A stretch of DNA of 64,000 nucleotides. It comes from Microcoleus sp. FACHB-1515. GTDB taxonomy: Bacteria > Cyanobacteriota > Cyanobacteriia > Elainellales > Elainellaceae. Under the pieces are notes generated by a model. It saw nothing but the letters and a program-made list of their open reading frames with translations, had not been told where the DNA came from and did no database searches. The translations under genes were made by a program, and so were the position numbers. The stretch spans positions 1-64,000 of the forward strand of contig NZ_JACJPO010000008.1 of NCBI RefSeq assembly GCF_014696105.1, in the 5' to 3' direction. Below are positions 8,425 through 40,467 of the stretch, piece by piece (within the stretch, counting starts at the first letter, position 1; each line of letters begins with the position of its first letter).

Positions 8425-9263
8425 AGAACGACCTCCTAATGACCAGCGTTTAACTGTCCTCAAGCCACTGAACTCGAAGGACGTCAGTGATTCGTATCAC
8501 ACCATAGTCGAGAACGAAATCACTGTCTACCTCGTAACGTAGGTAAGATTACCCCGCTTTTTGAGTTTAGACAAGCCTACACCAGCTTTTGAAAAATTCA
8601 CCCCTTCGTAAATTGGGAGTTTAGCGGCGATCGATTTAGTTCATTCGATCGGTAGGTGCAGGCTCGGTGCGGCTTGAGTTATTGCCTAACCAATCGCTAA
8701 GTTTACCCCACTCTTTCAGAAATGCAATCCCCTTCTTGTGGAAGGAATAAATTTTTGTAGAAAAATATTGGCAACCTGCGCGATTTTTCAGAAGCCGCGA
8801 TCTTCTAAAGAAGCGCAAAGCCGCTGCACGAATCGGTTTCATCGATCGATTGCGTTAGCAAGATTTTTGCGGTTCGACGTGTTCAAAATAACGCCTCAGC
8901 GAGCGTTGCTATCGAAAACTTAAGGGCGATCGCAATCGGCGAAACTGCTGATGAATACGAAGTTTCAGATGCAAAGTTGCGAGAATTTTGGGTGGCCACA
9001 AAAAAATTAGCCTCTGACTCCAGACTGAGATGAGAAATGCTCAAGAATAGAAATTTCTTATCAAAAGAACGAGGATTTTGTATTGTAGCCGACTAAAGTA
9101 GAAATCAATTTTCTCAATTGCATTTTCTGCATACCTACGCGGATTGCACCGCTCAATCCAGCATCGATCGGTTGCAATTAGCCGCTCAAAGGCGCTTCAT
9201 CACTTTTGAGTAACAATTCAGCAACAATTCGAGCACAGGCACTAATGCAGAACAGCGATCGCC
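8425..9263. other. Long intergenic region, nothing recognised
   Basis: About 840 bases between the divergent-looking ends of the M23 and trmL genes. It is AT-richer than its surroundings, especially 8990-9150. Open frames inside (8636-8842 and 8738-8923) lack Shine-Dalgarno sites and sensible composition. The promoter of the M23 gene must lie at its start. I see no RNA gene or clear repeat. Confidence 0.4.
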
Positions 9264-9725
9264 CTATTCCAGCAATCCTAACTGCCGCCGCGCTTCAAAC
9301 AGACCGATCGCCGCACTGACGGAAAGATTGAGGCTGCGTACTCCCGACTGACTCATGGGAATGTAGACAGTTGCCTGACAAGCGGCGAGCACAGCAGGCG
9401 GCAGTCCCTTGGTTTCGCTACCAAACAGCAGCCAGTCTTGCGGCTGAAATTGATACTTTATATAGCTAGATGCGCCTGAAGTGCTAAAGCCGATCCAGCG
9501 ACCGCCTCGCGATCGATGATGCGCCTGAAAAGCATTTAAATCATCGTGAACATGTAGCTTCACATAAGGCCAGTAGTCCAGTCCGGCACGCTTTAGATAG
9601 CGATCGCTAATCTCAAATCCCAACGGCCCAACTAGATGTAGCTCTGTATCAGTTGCAGCGCAGGTACGAGCAATATTTCCGGTATTTGGCGGGATTAGCG
9701 GATTGACCAAAACAACTTGAGGCAT
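9264..9725 (-). CDS. trmL: tRNA (cytidine(34)-2'-O)-methyltransferase, SPOUT family
   Basis: 153 residues from ATG 9725 (MPQVVLVNP); the longer TTG frame adds only a Leu-rich stretch. The sequence is that of a minimal SPOUT methyltransferase: PLIPPNTGNIARTCAAT near residue 10, LHLVGPLGF, LLFGSETKGLP near 105, and the C-terminal knot VRSLNLSVSAAIGLFEA. Length matches TrmL, which methylates the wobble ribose of tRNA-Leu isoacceptors. It stands alone, followed on the same strand after a long gap by the M23 gene. Confidence 0.9.
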   Translation of the reverse strand: MPQVVLVNPLIPPNTGNIARTCAATDTELHLVGPLGFEISDRYLKRAGLDYWPYVKLHVHDDLNAFQAHHRSRGGRWIGFSTSGASSYIKYQFQPQDWLLFGSETKGLPPAVLAACQATVYIPMSQSGVRSLNLSVSAAIGLFEARRQLGLLE

Positions 9726-9876
9726 AAGCAACAGCAGCAAATTCCTTATGGTTCCCAAAAGCAGGGACGCGATCGACTCGTAATCGAATCGATCGATAGA
9801 GATCTTTTATCTGTAAAGTCTATCTGAAGGCAGACGATCGAAAAATTTGCTACGCACGATTGTTAAGCTGCCTGTG

Positions 9877-11013
9877 TTAGGCAGCTTGCTGGCAGAGGTC
9901 TTGCGCGAGAAGCTGTTCTTGCTGCTCAACCGCCGCGATCGCCTGCTGCAACACCGCTCGACTGTCTTGCCCTTGTTCGATCTGCCGCAGCCAGCGCTGA
10001 GCTTCATTGCCCTCGCGCAGAATTTTCTGAATCGGCAAGAGGAAGCAGCCAAAGCCATGTCGCTTGACGATCGGGCTGACTTCCTGATAGAGCGCGGCCA
10101 CCCAATCGCGAGCCAAAATTTCGCGGCCATCTTGCCAGTGTCGCAACGTTGCATCAAGGCTAGCTTTGGCAGCGGCAGTTTCATTGGCATCCGCGATCGC
10201 CACTAGTTCTTCGGGCGAAAGCGAACTGAGTTTGAGCGGATCGAGAGTTGGGGTTTCGATCAGTTGCAGCAGACGGGCTTCGAGCAGGGCGGTGATTGCC
10301 AGCAGTGCGATCGGGTCGCTGACCAAATCACAGATGCGAAGCTCTAGGCGGTTGAGATTGTAAGGGCGGCGATCGCCATTTGGCCGGACGGCTGACCAAA
10401 GATGCCGCACGTTTTGCATTGTTCCGGCTGCCAACTGCGCCTCTGTCCACTCGATGAAGTGTGCGTGGCTGCTGAACAGCGGCACATCAGCGGGCGTTTT
10501 GGGAAAGACGCCCCAGCGCGTCGAATGATAGCCCGTCGGTTTGCTGTCGATGAATGGTGAGGCGGCACTCAGCGCAAGATAGAGCGGAGCTTCCAGCCGC
10601 ACCAGCCGACAAGCCTGCATCAACACTTCTGGGTCGGATATGCCGACATTGATATGAATGCTGGCGGTAACAACCGTTGTGCCGTAGGTCTGTTCGATGT
10701 AGGCGTGATAGGGATTGTTGGGGTCAGAGCGATGGAAGCGATCGCTGCCGCCCAAGGCCAATGTGCTGCCTGGAATTAACGTATAGTCGCCAAACTGCCG
10801 CAGGTAGGCTCGCAGTCGCTGACGCGGTTCCACTAGATCGCACAGCAAGCGTTCATATCGGTAGCGTGGAGCCGTTGTGTATTCGACGTTGCGGCTGTCG
10901 GGTTCGCGCACAAAGCCATCAAGGTCAGCGACGATGCGATCGGCAAAGCCCACAATATCGCCCGCTGGCGTGCCCGTGTACATCTCGACTTCAAATCCTT
11001 TTGACAGCAGCAC
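9877..11013 (-). CDS. gshA: Glutamate-cysteine ligase, cyanobacterial type
   Basis: 378 residues, GTG start at 11013. It matches the cyanobacterial/plant-like GCS2 group: an N-terminal part with RYRYERLLCDL, a substrate-binding region with TASIHINVGI and the stretch NLNRLELRICDLVSDP. It makes gamma-glutamylcysteine, the first step of glutathione synthesis, in the cytoplasm. A glutathione peroxidase-like gene occurs further along (52316). No gshB is visible here. Length is normal. Confidence 0.88.
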   Translation of the reverse strand: MLLSKGFEVEMYTGTPAGDIVGFADRIVADLDGFVREPDSRNVEYTTAPRYRYERLLCDLVEPRQRLRAYLRQFGDYTLIPGSTLALGGSDRFHRSDPNNPYHAYIEQTYGTTVVTASIHINVGISDPEVLMQACRLVRLEAPLYLALSAASPFIDSKPTGYHSTRWGVFPKTPADVPLFSSHAHFIEWTEAQLAAGTMQNVRHLWSAVRPNGDRRPYNLNRLELRICDLVSDPIALLAITALLEARLLQLIETPTLDPLKLSSLSPEELVAIADANETAAAKASLDATLRHWQDGREILARDWVAALYQEVSPIVKRHGFGCFLLPIQKILREGNEAQRWLRQIEQGQDSRAVLQQAIAAVEQQEQLLAQDLCQQAA

Positions 11014-11109
11014 AGATACTTTCCTCGATCGCTTCTGTATTTAGTATCTGCGATTGCGGAACGCTCACATCTGCCGCAAGGTGTTGGCTGTCTCAGGGTG
11101 CTGACTGCC

Positions 11110-11784
11110 TCAAGGTGCTGGCGCGGGTGCGATCATTTCTTGCAGCCAGTCGAGCAGGCGGCGATCGGTAAAATCGTGAATCGCAAAGCTTGCGCCCAAG
11201 GCTGTCAGTTCAACAGGCGGATGCGTTGAAGCAACGCCGATCGTATAAATGCCTGCACTCACCGCCGATCGCACACCGGAATGCGAATCTTCAAACGCGA
11301 TCGCCTCCTCCGGTAAAATTTCTAGCTTGGCAACGGCAGTTGAATACGGCATGGCGGCGGGTTTGCCTTCCGAGAGTTCTTCACCTAGCACGACTAGCGG
11401 GAAGCGATCGCGCACGGCCAGCACGTCCAGCATAAAATCGGCGTTGGCGCGGGGTGCATTCGTCACGACGGCTCGCTTCAGGCCATGCTGATCGATCCAG
11501 TCCAGCAGTTCGAGCAGTCCGGGCATCGGCTGGAGGAGAGTGACGGCGGAATCGCGAAACATCGCTTCTTTGCGATCGGCGAGTTGATTGTTTTCTTCCT
11601 GCGTCAGCCAGGGCAGCAAATCCGCAATAATTTCTTCGTTGAGCCGTCCGCTAAATCGCGCCTGATAAAACACCGGATCGATCTCGCGGCCAAATTCGCG
11701 CATCACGGTTTGCCAAACTCGATAGTGGATCGGGTCGGTGTTTGCCATCGTGCCGTCGAGATCAAACAAAAGCGCACTCAGCAT
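11110..11784 (-). CDS. HAD-superfamily phosphatase, beta-phosphoglucomutase-like
   Basis: 224 residues from ATG 11784 (MLSALLFDLDGT); the frame is open further upstream but only from there does the family pattern start. Motif I is FDLDGT (nucleophile Asp8, acid/base Asp10), motif II VVTNAP, motif III Lys in SEGKPA, and motif IV FEDSHSG. The helical cap between motifs I and II puts it in the subfamily I phosphatases and phosphoglucomutases. The substrate cannot be told from sequence. AGGAGG lies 18 bases upstream of the ATG, which is unusually far. The next gene upstream is divergent. Confidence 0.85.
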   Translation of the reverse strand: MLSALLFDLDGTMANTDPIHYRVWQTVMREFGREIDPVFYQARFSGRLNEEIIADLLPWLTQEENNQLADRKEAMFRDSAVTLLQPMPGLLELLDWIDQHGLKRAVVTNAPRANADFMLDVLAVRDRFPLVVLGEELSEGKPAAMPYSTAVAKLEILPEEAIAFEDSHSGVRSAVSAGIYTIGVASTHPPVELTALGASFAIHDFTDRRLLDWLQEMIAPAPAP

Positions 11785-38259: not shown

Positions 38260-38440
38260 GCGATCGAGTTTGGGCTGAGCGGAAGTTGTCAAGGGAAATG
38301 ATCAGGAAATTGAATTGCTGGGACGATGAGGAGTGTATAAAGCTTCGGTAATCTTCCTGATGAATTGTTGATAAATCGAAGAAATAATCGATGTGAATTG
38401 CACACAATAGCATCAGGTATCGCTGAAGCCGCTTCCTCTC

Positions 38441-39778
38441 ATGAGCATGACAACCACACGCCTTCAATCTGCCCTACAAAGTCTTCCTGAAAACGCACCG
38501 GAAGCAGTTGTTGATTCAAATTTTTCAACTCAGCTACTCGAAGCTTTAGGTTTTCAATCACAAGAAATTCATCCTCAATTTCCAACAGGTGATGGAGCCG
38601 CTGACAAAGCTGCTCGAAAGACAGTTGGAGATGACATTTTTCTTTATACAAAATCAAATTCTTATCTTTTAGTGGAGCTAAAAGGCAGAGATATCAATTT
38701 ATCCAGTGAATCTGCTTATTACCAAAAAACTGTTAATCAGTTGAAGCGATACTTGCTTGCACCAAATTGTAAAACAGCACAGTGGGGCATCATCACAAAC
38801 TCATGTCATATTCAACTGTTTCGGAAGCATGGAAAGGTAGTTTTTCCAGCAACACAGTGTCTTGCTCTCAATGATGAGAACATTGATGAGATTGTTGCTT
38901 CGATTCGCAAAAAAATTGAAAATCCAGCTAAAGCGCTGACGATCGCCGTCTACAACAACAAAGGAGGAGTCGGGAAAACAACTACAACTGTCAACCTTGC
39001 AGCTATTCTGGCATTTTTGGGTAAGAAAGTTTTGGCGATCGACTTTGACCCCAACCAGCAAGATTTGACGAGTTCTCTGGGTCTTTCTTTAAGCGAAGAT
39101 CAAGTCTTTAAGGCTCTTACTGAAAAAGATATAGAGTTTCAAAGCACTGCACAGACCTTTTCTTTTCCAGTCAGACGAGCGAACACTGAATTGAAGTTTG
39201 ACATCATTCCTGCTGATCAAATGCTGGCTAGTAAATCAGAAGAATTTTTGGAGTCTTATTTCAAACCCAATACGCTTTATCGCAACTTAGCCCCCGCAAG
39301 GCAAGAGTATGATTACATTTTGATTGATGCGCCTCCAAATTGGCGACTGTTCAGCAAACAGGCTGTCTACGCTGCCGATGTTGTTTTCATTCCCACAAAG
39401 CATAACAACCTTTTCTCACTGGAAAATGCAGCGACAGCAATGAAGAAATTTATTCCTGAAATGCAAGCAGAAAAAGGTGATGGTAGTCCAGTTCCATTGC
39501 CAATCTTCTTTAATGGAGAAAAAATCACTGCGCCTCAGCTAGCAGTTGCCCAGCAAGAAATCACCAACATTCTCAAAACTGCTAAGAAGGAAGGATGTGA
39601 CTTGTTACCTTACTTCTATCCGAAGTACACCACTTCCCGAAAAGATTTACACATTCATCAACTACCGAGCTACGCGAACATTGCAAGTTCAGCTTTTTCT
39701 CGTGTTCCTGCGGTTTATCGAGACAGAGCAGCCCATGATTACTACAAAGACTTAGCAAAGGAGTACTTTTTACAATGA
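38441..39778 (+). CDS. Restriction-nuclease-like domain fused to a ParA ATPase
   Basis: 445 residues. Residues about 1-155 resemble the N-terminal domain of type I restriction HsdR subunits. Asp51 in TGDGAADKA and Glu79-Leu-Lys81 in LLVELKGRD make a PD-(D/E)xK-like set, and QLKRYLLAPNCKTAQWGIITN follows the usual helix-strand pattern. Residues about 165-445 are a ParA/Soj ATPase: deviant Walker A KGGVGKT (174-180), DFDPNQQD (201-208) and ILIDAPPNW. ATGA overlap couples it to the next gene. The locus is AT-richer than its neighbours, suggesting transfer. Role could be DNA partition, or recognition and restriction of invading DNA; neither is proved. Confidence 0.85.
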   Translation: MSMTTTRLQSALQSLPENAPEAVVDSNFSTQLLEALGFQSQEIHPQFPTGDGAADKAARKTVGDDIFLYTKSNSYLLVELKGRDINLSSESAYYQKTVNQLKRYLLAPNCKTAQWGIITNSCHIQLFRKHGKVVFPATQCLALNDENIDEIVASIRKKIENPAKALTIAVYNNKGGVGKTTTTVNLAAILAFLGKKVLAIDFDPNQQDLTSSLGLSLSEDQVFKALTEKDIEFQSTAQTFSFPVRRANTELKFDIIPADQMLASKSEEFLESYFKPNTLYRNLAPARQEYDYILIDAPPNWRLFSKQAVYAADVVFIPTKHNNLFSLENAATAMKKFIPEMQAEKGDGSPVPLPIFFNGEKITAPQLAVAQQEITNILKTAKKEGCDLLPYFYPKYTTSRKDLHIHQLPSYANIASSAFSRVPAVYRDRAAHDYYKDLAKEYFLQ

Positions 39779-40467
39779 GTAGCCTCAGCAGCATTGGAAA
39801 ATTGATGCATTTGTATCTGGATGAAATTGAACCAGGTGAAGAAACGGATGCGCCGGAATTTTTGATTCAAGCTTCTGCACATTTGCTGAATCAAAAAGGT
39901 GGACGCAATTGGATTCCCGTCATCGTTAAGGAAACAGGTGAAGATCAATATGAGGTGATTGGAAATTCATTCATCTATGCGATCGCAGAAGAAGCTGGAC
40001 TCGATCGAGTTTGGTGCATTGTTGCAGATGATAGCGAAGACACCGCTGAAATTACGAAAGTTTTGGCTGGCGAACAAACCCCAAAAATCAATCTTTCAAA
40101 AGCATCGCGAGATGAAATCATGGCCGCGCTGCAATTCTTGATCGAGCAGCCCGGAAGCCCTTTGAAATCAGTAAGATTGGCGGTCGCAACCAGCAGAATT
40201 GACGAAGCACCCCGCCAATACTGGAAAAACTTGGAGCCAATTACGACCCTGAAATGCGGCATTACAAAAGGCAAAAAACTCGATGCTCTAAAGCAAGTGT
40301 TTTACCTCACTCCTCAGCCGATGTCAGAGACAATTACTGACACCGCTATTCTCAAAACGCTATCAACAACCGATTTGAAAAACATGGCGAAGCAGCGAGG
40401 AATCTCTGGCATCAGCAAGATGAAGAAAAATGATTTTGTTGAAGCACTCAGCAAGCCTTCAAAGTAA
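39775..40467 (+). CDS. ParB-like protein with a Rho_N/SAP-type C-terminal domain
   Basis: 230 residues, ATG inside the ATGA overlap with the ParA-fusion gene. The N-terminal ~95 residues have the ParB/Srx-like look (FLIQASAHLLNQKGGRNW, then PVIVKETGEDQYEVIGNSFIY and AGLDRVWCIVAD), without the classic ParB GxRR arginine patch. The last ~35 residues (LKTLSTTDLKNMAKQRGI, SKMKKNDFVEAL) match a Rho_N or SAP-like nucleic-acid binding helix pair. It is the partner of the ParA fusion and probably targets it to DNA; no parS-like palindrome is obvious in the locus. Convergent with crtH. Confidence 0.75.
   Translation: MSSLSSIGKLMHLYLDEIEPGEETDAPEFLIQASAHLLNQKGGRNWIPVIVKETGEDQYEVIGNSFIYAIAEEAGLDRVWCIVADDSEDTAEITKVLAGEQTPKINLSKASRDEIMAALQFLIEQPGSPLKSVRLAVATSRIDEAPRQYWKNLEPITTLKCGITKGKKLDALKQVFYLTPQPMSETITDTAILKTLSTTDLKNMAKQRGISGISKMKKNDFVEALSKPSK

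Follow-up and report, generated by a model that had tools for sequence, protein, structure and literature searches.

The cargo positioned by ParA-family ATPases includes plasmids, chromosomes and carboxysomes. The type Ia members (P1 ParA, SopA) have an N-terminal DNA-binding domain, and in ParB the box II motif GERRxRA is engaged in CTP binding. VirC1, a ParA-like protein, brings the relaxosome to T-DNA borders. Osa is a DNase of the ParB/Srx superfamily that acts against the transfer of rival plasmid DNA (PMC5512222). VirC1 and Osa illustrate the use of such parts in DNA processing and in conflict. The locus described here is found in a 64,000-nucleotide stretch of DNA from Microcoleus sp. 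FACHB-1515 (the whole stretch analysed is named the window). Its first gene codes a ParA ATPase with an N-terminal domain of nuclease type and its second gene a protein with a ParB fold. No description of a ParA-nuclease fusion was found in the open-access literature and the pair as a unit is absent from the family libraries searched, PADLOC included. The unit is, as far as we found, undescribed. The pair is not rated as categorically new because each of its domains is already known.

Organization of the locus

The features of the pair are listed in Table 1. The stop codon of gene 1 and the initiation codon of gene 2 share a 4-nt overlap (ATGA). An earlier note, made from the letters of the window, had proposed translational coupling on this basis, and both ORFs are indeed present at these positions. 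The note also described the region as AT-rich: the G+C content of the pair is ~0.40-0.46 as compared to ~0.53-0.58 in its flanks in the window, which confirms this description. A leader of ~50 bases found 5′ of gene 1 (window positions 38380-38440) is seemingly conserved among the Nostoc copies (L084-L092) and in part in the window. It features a motif like CACTAGACTTAGACATTGCTGGAAG.

Table 1. Coordinates of the features of the two-gene locus in the window.
Feature	Position	Strand	Description and basis
Gene 1	38441-39778	+	445 aa ORF
HSDR_N_2 / PD-(D/E)XK-type domain	38441..38860	+	gene 1 residues 1-140; Pfam, model, conservation
D55 codon of gene 1	38603-38605	+	
Helix/linker, nuclease-type to ParA domain	38861..38929	+	gene 1 residues 141-163; poorly conserved
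Complete ParA/Soj ATPase	38930..39775	+	gene 1 residues 164-445; KGGVGKT; AAA_31, Soj alignment
Fast-changing ParA segment	39206..39289	+	gene 1 residues 256-283; amino-acid versus silent changes
Gene 2	39775-40467	+	230 aa ORF; start codon overlaps gene 1 stop
ParB_N/Srx fold without box-II arginines	39796..40080	+	gene 2 residues 8-102; model alignment with ParB
Helical domain	40081..40314	+	gene 2 residues 103-180; conservation
Rho_N/SAP-like helix pair	40342..40464	+	gene 2 residues 190-230; PF07498, Rho N-domain alignment

Protein 1

The N-terminal part of protein 1 (residues 1-156), when scanned alone, matches the HSDR_N_2 family (PF13588) over residues 23-129 with a score of 29.2 bits (cut-off 25), as expected from the PD-(D/E)xK-like N-terminus that had been read in the sequence. 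The same family is matched by 21 of 22 relatives at E ≤ 0.1. In the AlphaFold model of protein 1 (mean pLDDT 94; the alignments for the structure models cover loci other than those on plasmids) the elements of the N-domain follow each other as H21-35, E43-48, E53-58, E76-80, H92-105 and E115-119. This alpha-beta-beta-beta-alpha-beta order is the one of the PD-(D/E)XK core, with D55 placed by the model on the second strand and E79 and K81 at the end of the third one. The residues E21, E79 and Q100 are found in 89/89 relatives, K81 in 88/89 and D55 in 87/89, and those of the PD-(D/E)XK motif are retained even in relatives that are ~26% identical. Glu79 and Lys81 had been correctly pointed out by the earlier note; the conserved acidic residue that completes them is D55 and not Asp51. 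Profile, model and conservation identify the N-domain as an HSDR_N-type PD-(D/E)XK domain whose predicted triad is D55/E79/K81. The linker that follows it has a mean identity of 0.39, as compared to 0.52-0.57 for the domains on either side.

The AAA_31/ParA profile matches protein 1 with 123 bits and the ParA half of the model aligns with Soj of H. pylori (Z 29.7, 2.5 Å over 252 residues, 28% identity). The score and the Soj fold, which extends over the whole ATPase, agree with the complete ParA ATPase claimed previously. The deviant Walker A motif KGGxGK[T/S] with its signature lysine and the aspartates of motifs A′ and B are all present: K174, K179, D203 and D296 are invariant in 89/89 relatives and T180 is found in 88/89. 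The Walker lysine is K179, which corrects the assignment to K180. The complete Soj-like ATPase and a partner with the ParB fold, whose gene stands in the canonical position, speak for an orphan ParAB-like module for partition or DNA positioning, in which the HsdR-type domain would be DNA-binding or regulatory and would replace the N-domain of type Ia ParA. We consider this main rival of the nuclease reading unlikely, although with a claim to attention. The invariant catalytic residues of the nuclease motif are unexpected for a pure DNA-binding domain.

Protein 2

The second protein was proposed to be ParB/Srx-like with a C-terminal Rho_N-like helix pair, and both assignments hold. Protein 2 itself scores 17.6 bits with the ParB_N profile, below the 26.3 cut-off, but ParB_N matches at E ≤ 0.1 are found in 35 of 38 of its relatives and its model (pLDDT 92) has the ParB_N fold, aligning with ParB of M. 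xanthus (Z 12.4, 2.2 Å over 90 residues). The C-terminal end is recognized by Rho_N (PF07498; 32.1 bits, cut-off 24.9), and this part of the model superposes with the Rho N-domain (Z 6.2, 1.5 Å over 43 residues). The helical domain that separates these two parts is the best-conserved stretch of the protein (residues 103-180, mean identity 0.63). CTPase ParB has a parS-binding HTH domain and a C-terminal dimerization domain; the corresponding part of protein 2 consists of this helical domain and the Rho_N/SAP-like end. In six loci (L056, L060, L062-L064, L067) the helical domain is duplicated, its second copy taking the place of the Rho_N/SAP end, and the protein is ~263-282 aa long. In the divergent plasmid branch (L038-L041) the end of protein 2 has neither the Rho_N/SAP pair nor a second helical copy.

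The invariant residues of protein 2 are N45, P48, V51, N64, W80 and C81. The segment at the position of box II reads GNSFIYA, and none of 89 relatives has R or K at positions 64-68. Because the box-II arginines are missing, protein 2 is unlikely, as judged from its sequence, to form a ParB-type CTP clamp or to act as a reader in that manner. The loss of these arginines also counts against an orphan partition module.

Distribution of the pair

The search for the pair in other cyanobacteria, advised by the earlier note, uncovered a cyanobacterial family. Of 386 sampled cyanobacterial genomes, 50 (~13%) have the N-domain, a count that includes a small number of weak hits on other proteins. Among 60 host relatives it is present in 18. 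When 84,980 species genomes were scanned, 115 matching stretches were obtained; the best 80 loci are all cyanobacterial with the exception of one probable binning error. This is a 3.7 kb contig (L102) assigned to a Tatlockia (Legionellaceae) MAG that bears the pair together with cyanobacterial neighbours. It was rejected as a relative from outside the cyanobacteria: the contig groups inside the cyanobacteria and has neighbour genes in common with cyanobacterial loci, and is therefore probably misbinned. No N-domain match was found among 50,697 phage records. Spread by phages was likewise set aside as the neighbours of the single viral-contig match are, by eye, mobile-element-like and not phage genes.

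Gene 2 directly follows gene 1 in most loci and this adjacency is kept in nearly all intact ones. The two-gene unit is old and real. Gene 1 is found without a detectable gene 2 in four genomes (G089, G247, G280, G306), while G179 has merely a weak gene 2 match located elsewhere in the genome (E 7e-4). In G089, G179 and G247, which belong to one genus, gene 1 occupies one syntenic place near rpsB/tsf. In a divergent branch (~26% identity), carried by plasmids of Nostoc, Leptolyngbya and Pseudanabaena, the PD...ExK residues are unchanged and gene 2 is shorter.

Genomic context

The pair is mostly chromosomal and stands alone between core genes, a location that the earlier note had recognized and that holds for most copies. 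No neighbour family recurs across lineages: synteny is limited to the genus or is local, and no conserved neighbour common to lineages provided a functional clue. A location in defence islands, raised by the earlier note as a point to check, was abandoned because PADLOC families show no excess in 150 near neighbours relative to 150 that lie beyond 5 kb, a coarse comparison in which PADLOC and Pfam tallies count models and not proteins. The Pfam tallies of the neighbours are those of housekeeping families. No HsdM or HsdS adjoins the pair in the window, whose ATPase is ParA and not an HsdR helicase.

The divergent plasmid branch is the context most favourable to an orphan partition module. It includes the 12.6 kb plasmid ABRG53g, where the family member is the only ParA-like ORF found. 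However, chromosomal loci predominate, so that the pair is not a constant neighbour of a plasmid origin, and no replication gene was found beside it. No conserved inverted repeat or parS-like motif is present in either 300-base flank, with the exception of HIP1, the octamer common in cyanobacteria, and the surroundings of the pair in the window likewise gave no parS-like repeat. An ordinary iteron-type plasmid partition system was discarded since these regions contain no repeat array. Moreover, the three plasmids of Nostoc sp. UHCC 0870 that carry family members each code another ParA, two of the three also ParM, and two of the three a ParB-family protein. The host genome likewise has further ParA and ParB_N genes besides the pair.

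Two local arrangements were observed. The pair lies at most 9 kb from the ATP synthase operon in L044, L048, L049, L059, L060 and L066 (Microcystis and two other genera, g14 and g48), in different orientations and positions. This may reflect chance or a region that tolerates insertions. In two Microcystis genomes an RRXRR/IscB-like gene, as identified by eye, is found directly 5′ of the pair (L044, positions 8666-9763; L047, positions 10295-11440). One of these genomes has the gene broken into two ORFs.

Movement, loss and selection

In 96% of 80 loci the G+C content of the pair is lower than the median for the ORFs around it, and the difference averages -7.5 points. In the tree of protein 1, grouping by taxonomic order is far above that obtained with shuffled labels. 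This clustered inheritance fits an orphan partition module; it also indicates slower movement than that of many defence systems. The well-supported branches imply at least two changes for Nostocales and at least four for Oscillatoriales, which suggests, without proving, a few transfers. Some copies are carried by plasmids and one by a mobile-element-like contig. In Microcystis the pair occupies one site in most genomes, but it is absent from G435, where the flanking genes adjoin each other, and is reduced in G436 to the end of gene 2. Gene 1 is decayed or truncated in L043, L048 and L067, with a stop codon within the nuclease-type domain in some of them. These decayed copies suggest repeated loss. 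Its composition, its patchy distribution and these losses support the idea, put forward in the earlier note, that the pair was acquired.

The decayed remnants (L043, G436), the coupled operon and the existence of both plasmid and chromosomal copies would suit a selfish, addiction-like unit that stabilizes its own locus and whose nuclease is held in check by the partner. Against it, gene 1 is found without gene 2, and therefore gene 1 alone is not lethal in those genomes; the sizes and domains of the two proteins are also unlike those of known addiction pairs. We give such a unit only a slim chance.

The nuclease-type domain, ParA and protein 2 have dN/dS values of ~0.1-0.2 in Nostoc, Pleurocapsales and other Nostocales, and all parts are under purifying selection in most lineages. 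For the nuclease domain, three clades give values of 0.11-0.21 and Microcystis gives 0.47; protein 2 is strongly constrained in Microcystis (0.10). The strong purifying selection, the conservation of protein 2, the chromosomal position among core genes and the solo gene 1 that several genomes of a single genus keep in the same syntenic place would all be compatible with cellular DNA maintenance unconnected with conflict, in which ParA would position a nuclease for repair or recombination in polyploid cyanobacterial cells. A maintenance function is rather improbable, however: the pair is absent from most genomes, was lost in close relatives and has a foreign-like composition.

The N/S ratio of gene 1 in Microcystis is 1.95, as compared to 0.26-0.98 for three other ParA families of the same genomes. 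Changes accumulate in residues 256-283, where the ratio of amino-acid to silent changes is 20:2 versus 95:53 in Microcystis (Fisher one-sided p 0.008) and 35:17 versus 185:303 in Nostoc (p 4e-5). This segment was chosen from the same data, although it ranks first in both genera. A milder excess in the corresponding segment is also seen in one of the control ParA families of Microcystis (26:12), a point against the reading favoured below. The excess is a lead towards diversifying selection on residues 256-283, not a proof.

A possible mechanism

We tentatively favour, with confidence somewhat short of even, a DNA-cutting module in which a nuclease fused to a ParA ATPase, and thereby borne on the nucleoid, is gated by the ParA cycle and is probably directed against invading DNA. 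By analogy with Soj/ParA, ATP-bound protein 1 would dimerize and bind DNA non-specifically through its ParA half. The Rho_N/SAP end and the helical domain would hold protein 2 at a DNA feature, or at a complex of DNA and protein, and protein 2 would alter the ATPase state of protein 1 or the local concentration of protein 1. The PD-(D/E)XK domains might then cut or nick that DNA. The likeliest use of such a solitary accessory pair would be in conflict with incoming plasmid or phage DNA. The ATP-dependent DNA binding is inferred from the established biochemistry of ParA. Control of protein 1 by protein 2, DNA cleavage by the N-domain and the choice of invading DNA as target are more tentative proposals.

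This reading is favoured by nuclease-motif residues invariant to the same degree as those of the ATPase, by the maintained adjacency of the two genes and by the low dN/dS of the nuclease domain. It is further favoured by the accessory behaviour of the pair (patchy presence, low G+C, loss in Microcystis, plasmid and mobile-element copies) and by the contrast in Microcystis between the raised N/S of gene 1 and the strong constraint on protein 2. Against it stand the ordinary core genes that surround the pair, devoid of PADLOC enrichment, and its order-clustered tree; moreover, the nuclease domain comes with neither a modification gene nor an immunity gene. The four genomes with gene 1 and no detectable gene 2 argue against the two-protein mechanism, which therefore cannot hold everywhere; protein 2 is not strictly required in all lineages. 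The earlier note had suggested a ParA-driven sensor that would gather a ParB-like DNA reader and then cut, in defence against plasmids or phages. The lack of defence-gene enrichment, the clustered inheritance and the solo gene 1 lineages likewise count against this suggestion.

A more specific possibility, which we regard as doubtful, is that the pair represents an undescribed class of immune effectors. A ParA-borne nuclease would patrol or coat DNA, and its trigger would be the partner, a degenerate ParB-like protein that has Rho_N/SAP as its reader. If true, DNA-segregation machinery would have been turned into a DNA-surveillance nuclease. More generally, a ParA with a near-invariant nuclease active site in many cyanobacterial orders would represent either a new mode of aiming a nuclease at DNA or the reuse of a nuclease fold in partition. 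The copies in Microcystis, Nostoc and Microcoleus make both ideas directly testable, and single-residue mutants would separate them.

Comparison with known systems

Among known defence families, only PDC-M28B (PADLOC candidate PDC-M28) was matched, through the P-loop ATPase region. PDC-M28 is a PADLOC-listed defence candidate that also has an ATPase of the ParA superfamily, but its motif is KGGVGR instead of KGGVGKT, no HSDR_N was seen in the members examined and the partner is different. PDC-M28B was rejected as a described relative since its true members have the KGGVGR ATPase, another N-terminus and another partner; because of these differences the match is to the ATPase region only. A gene whose 143-144 aa product is HEPN-like by eye lies ahead of the KGGVGR ParA-like ATPase genes (PDC-M28B) of L163-L165. 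These genes form a separate candidate conflict pair in cyanobacteria.

ParA/Soj (with Spo0J/ParB) is one of the closest known systems: the ATPase folds in the same way, none of the deviant Walker motifs (A, A′ and B) is incomplete, and here too a ParB-fold gene is found directly downstream. The pair differs by the N-terminal nuclease-type domain of its ATPase, by a partner that has a Rho_N/SAP end and is devoid of the CTPase arginines, and by surroundings in which no rep or parS context was found. With HsdR of type I restriction (HSDR_N / HSDR_N_2) it has in common the sequence family and the PD-(D/E)XK motif, but it has no helicase, HsdM or HsdS and the N-domain is joined to ParA. Osa, GmrS, DdrB and DndB of the ParB/Srx superfamily, which are found in settings of genomic conflict, have the same ParB/Srx fold as protein 2. 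Unlike in Osa and the other ParB/Srx conflict proteins, box II of the pair lacks the arginine of the superfamily and the nuclease motif resides in the ParA partner.
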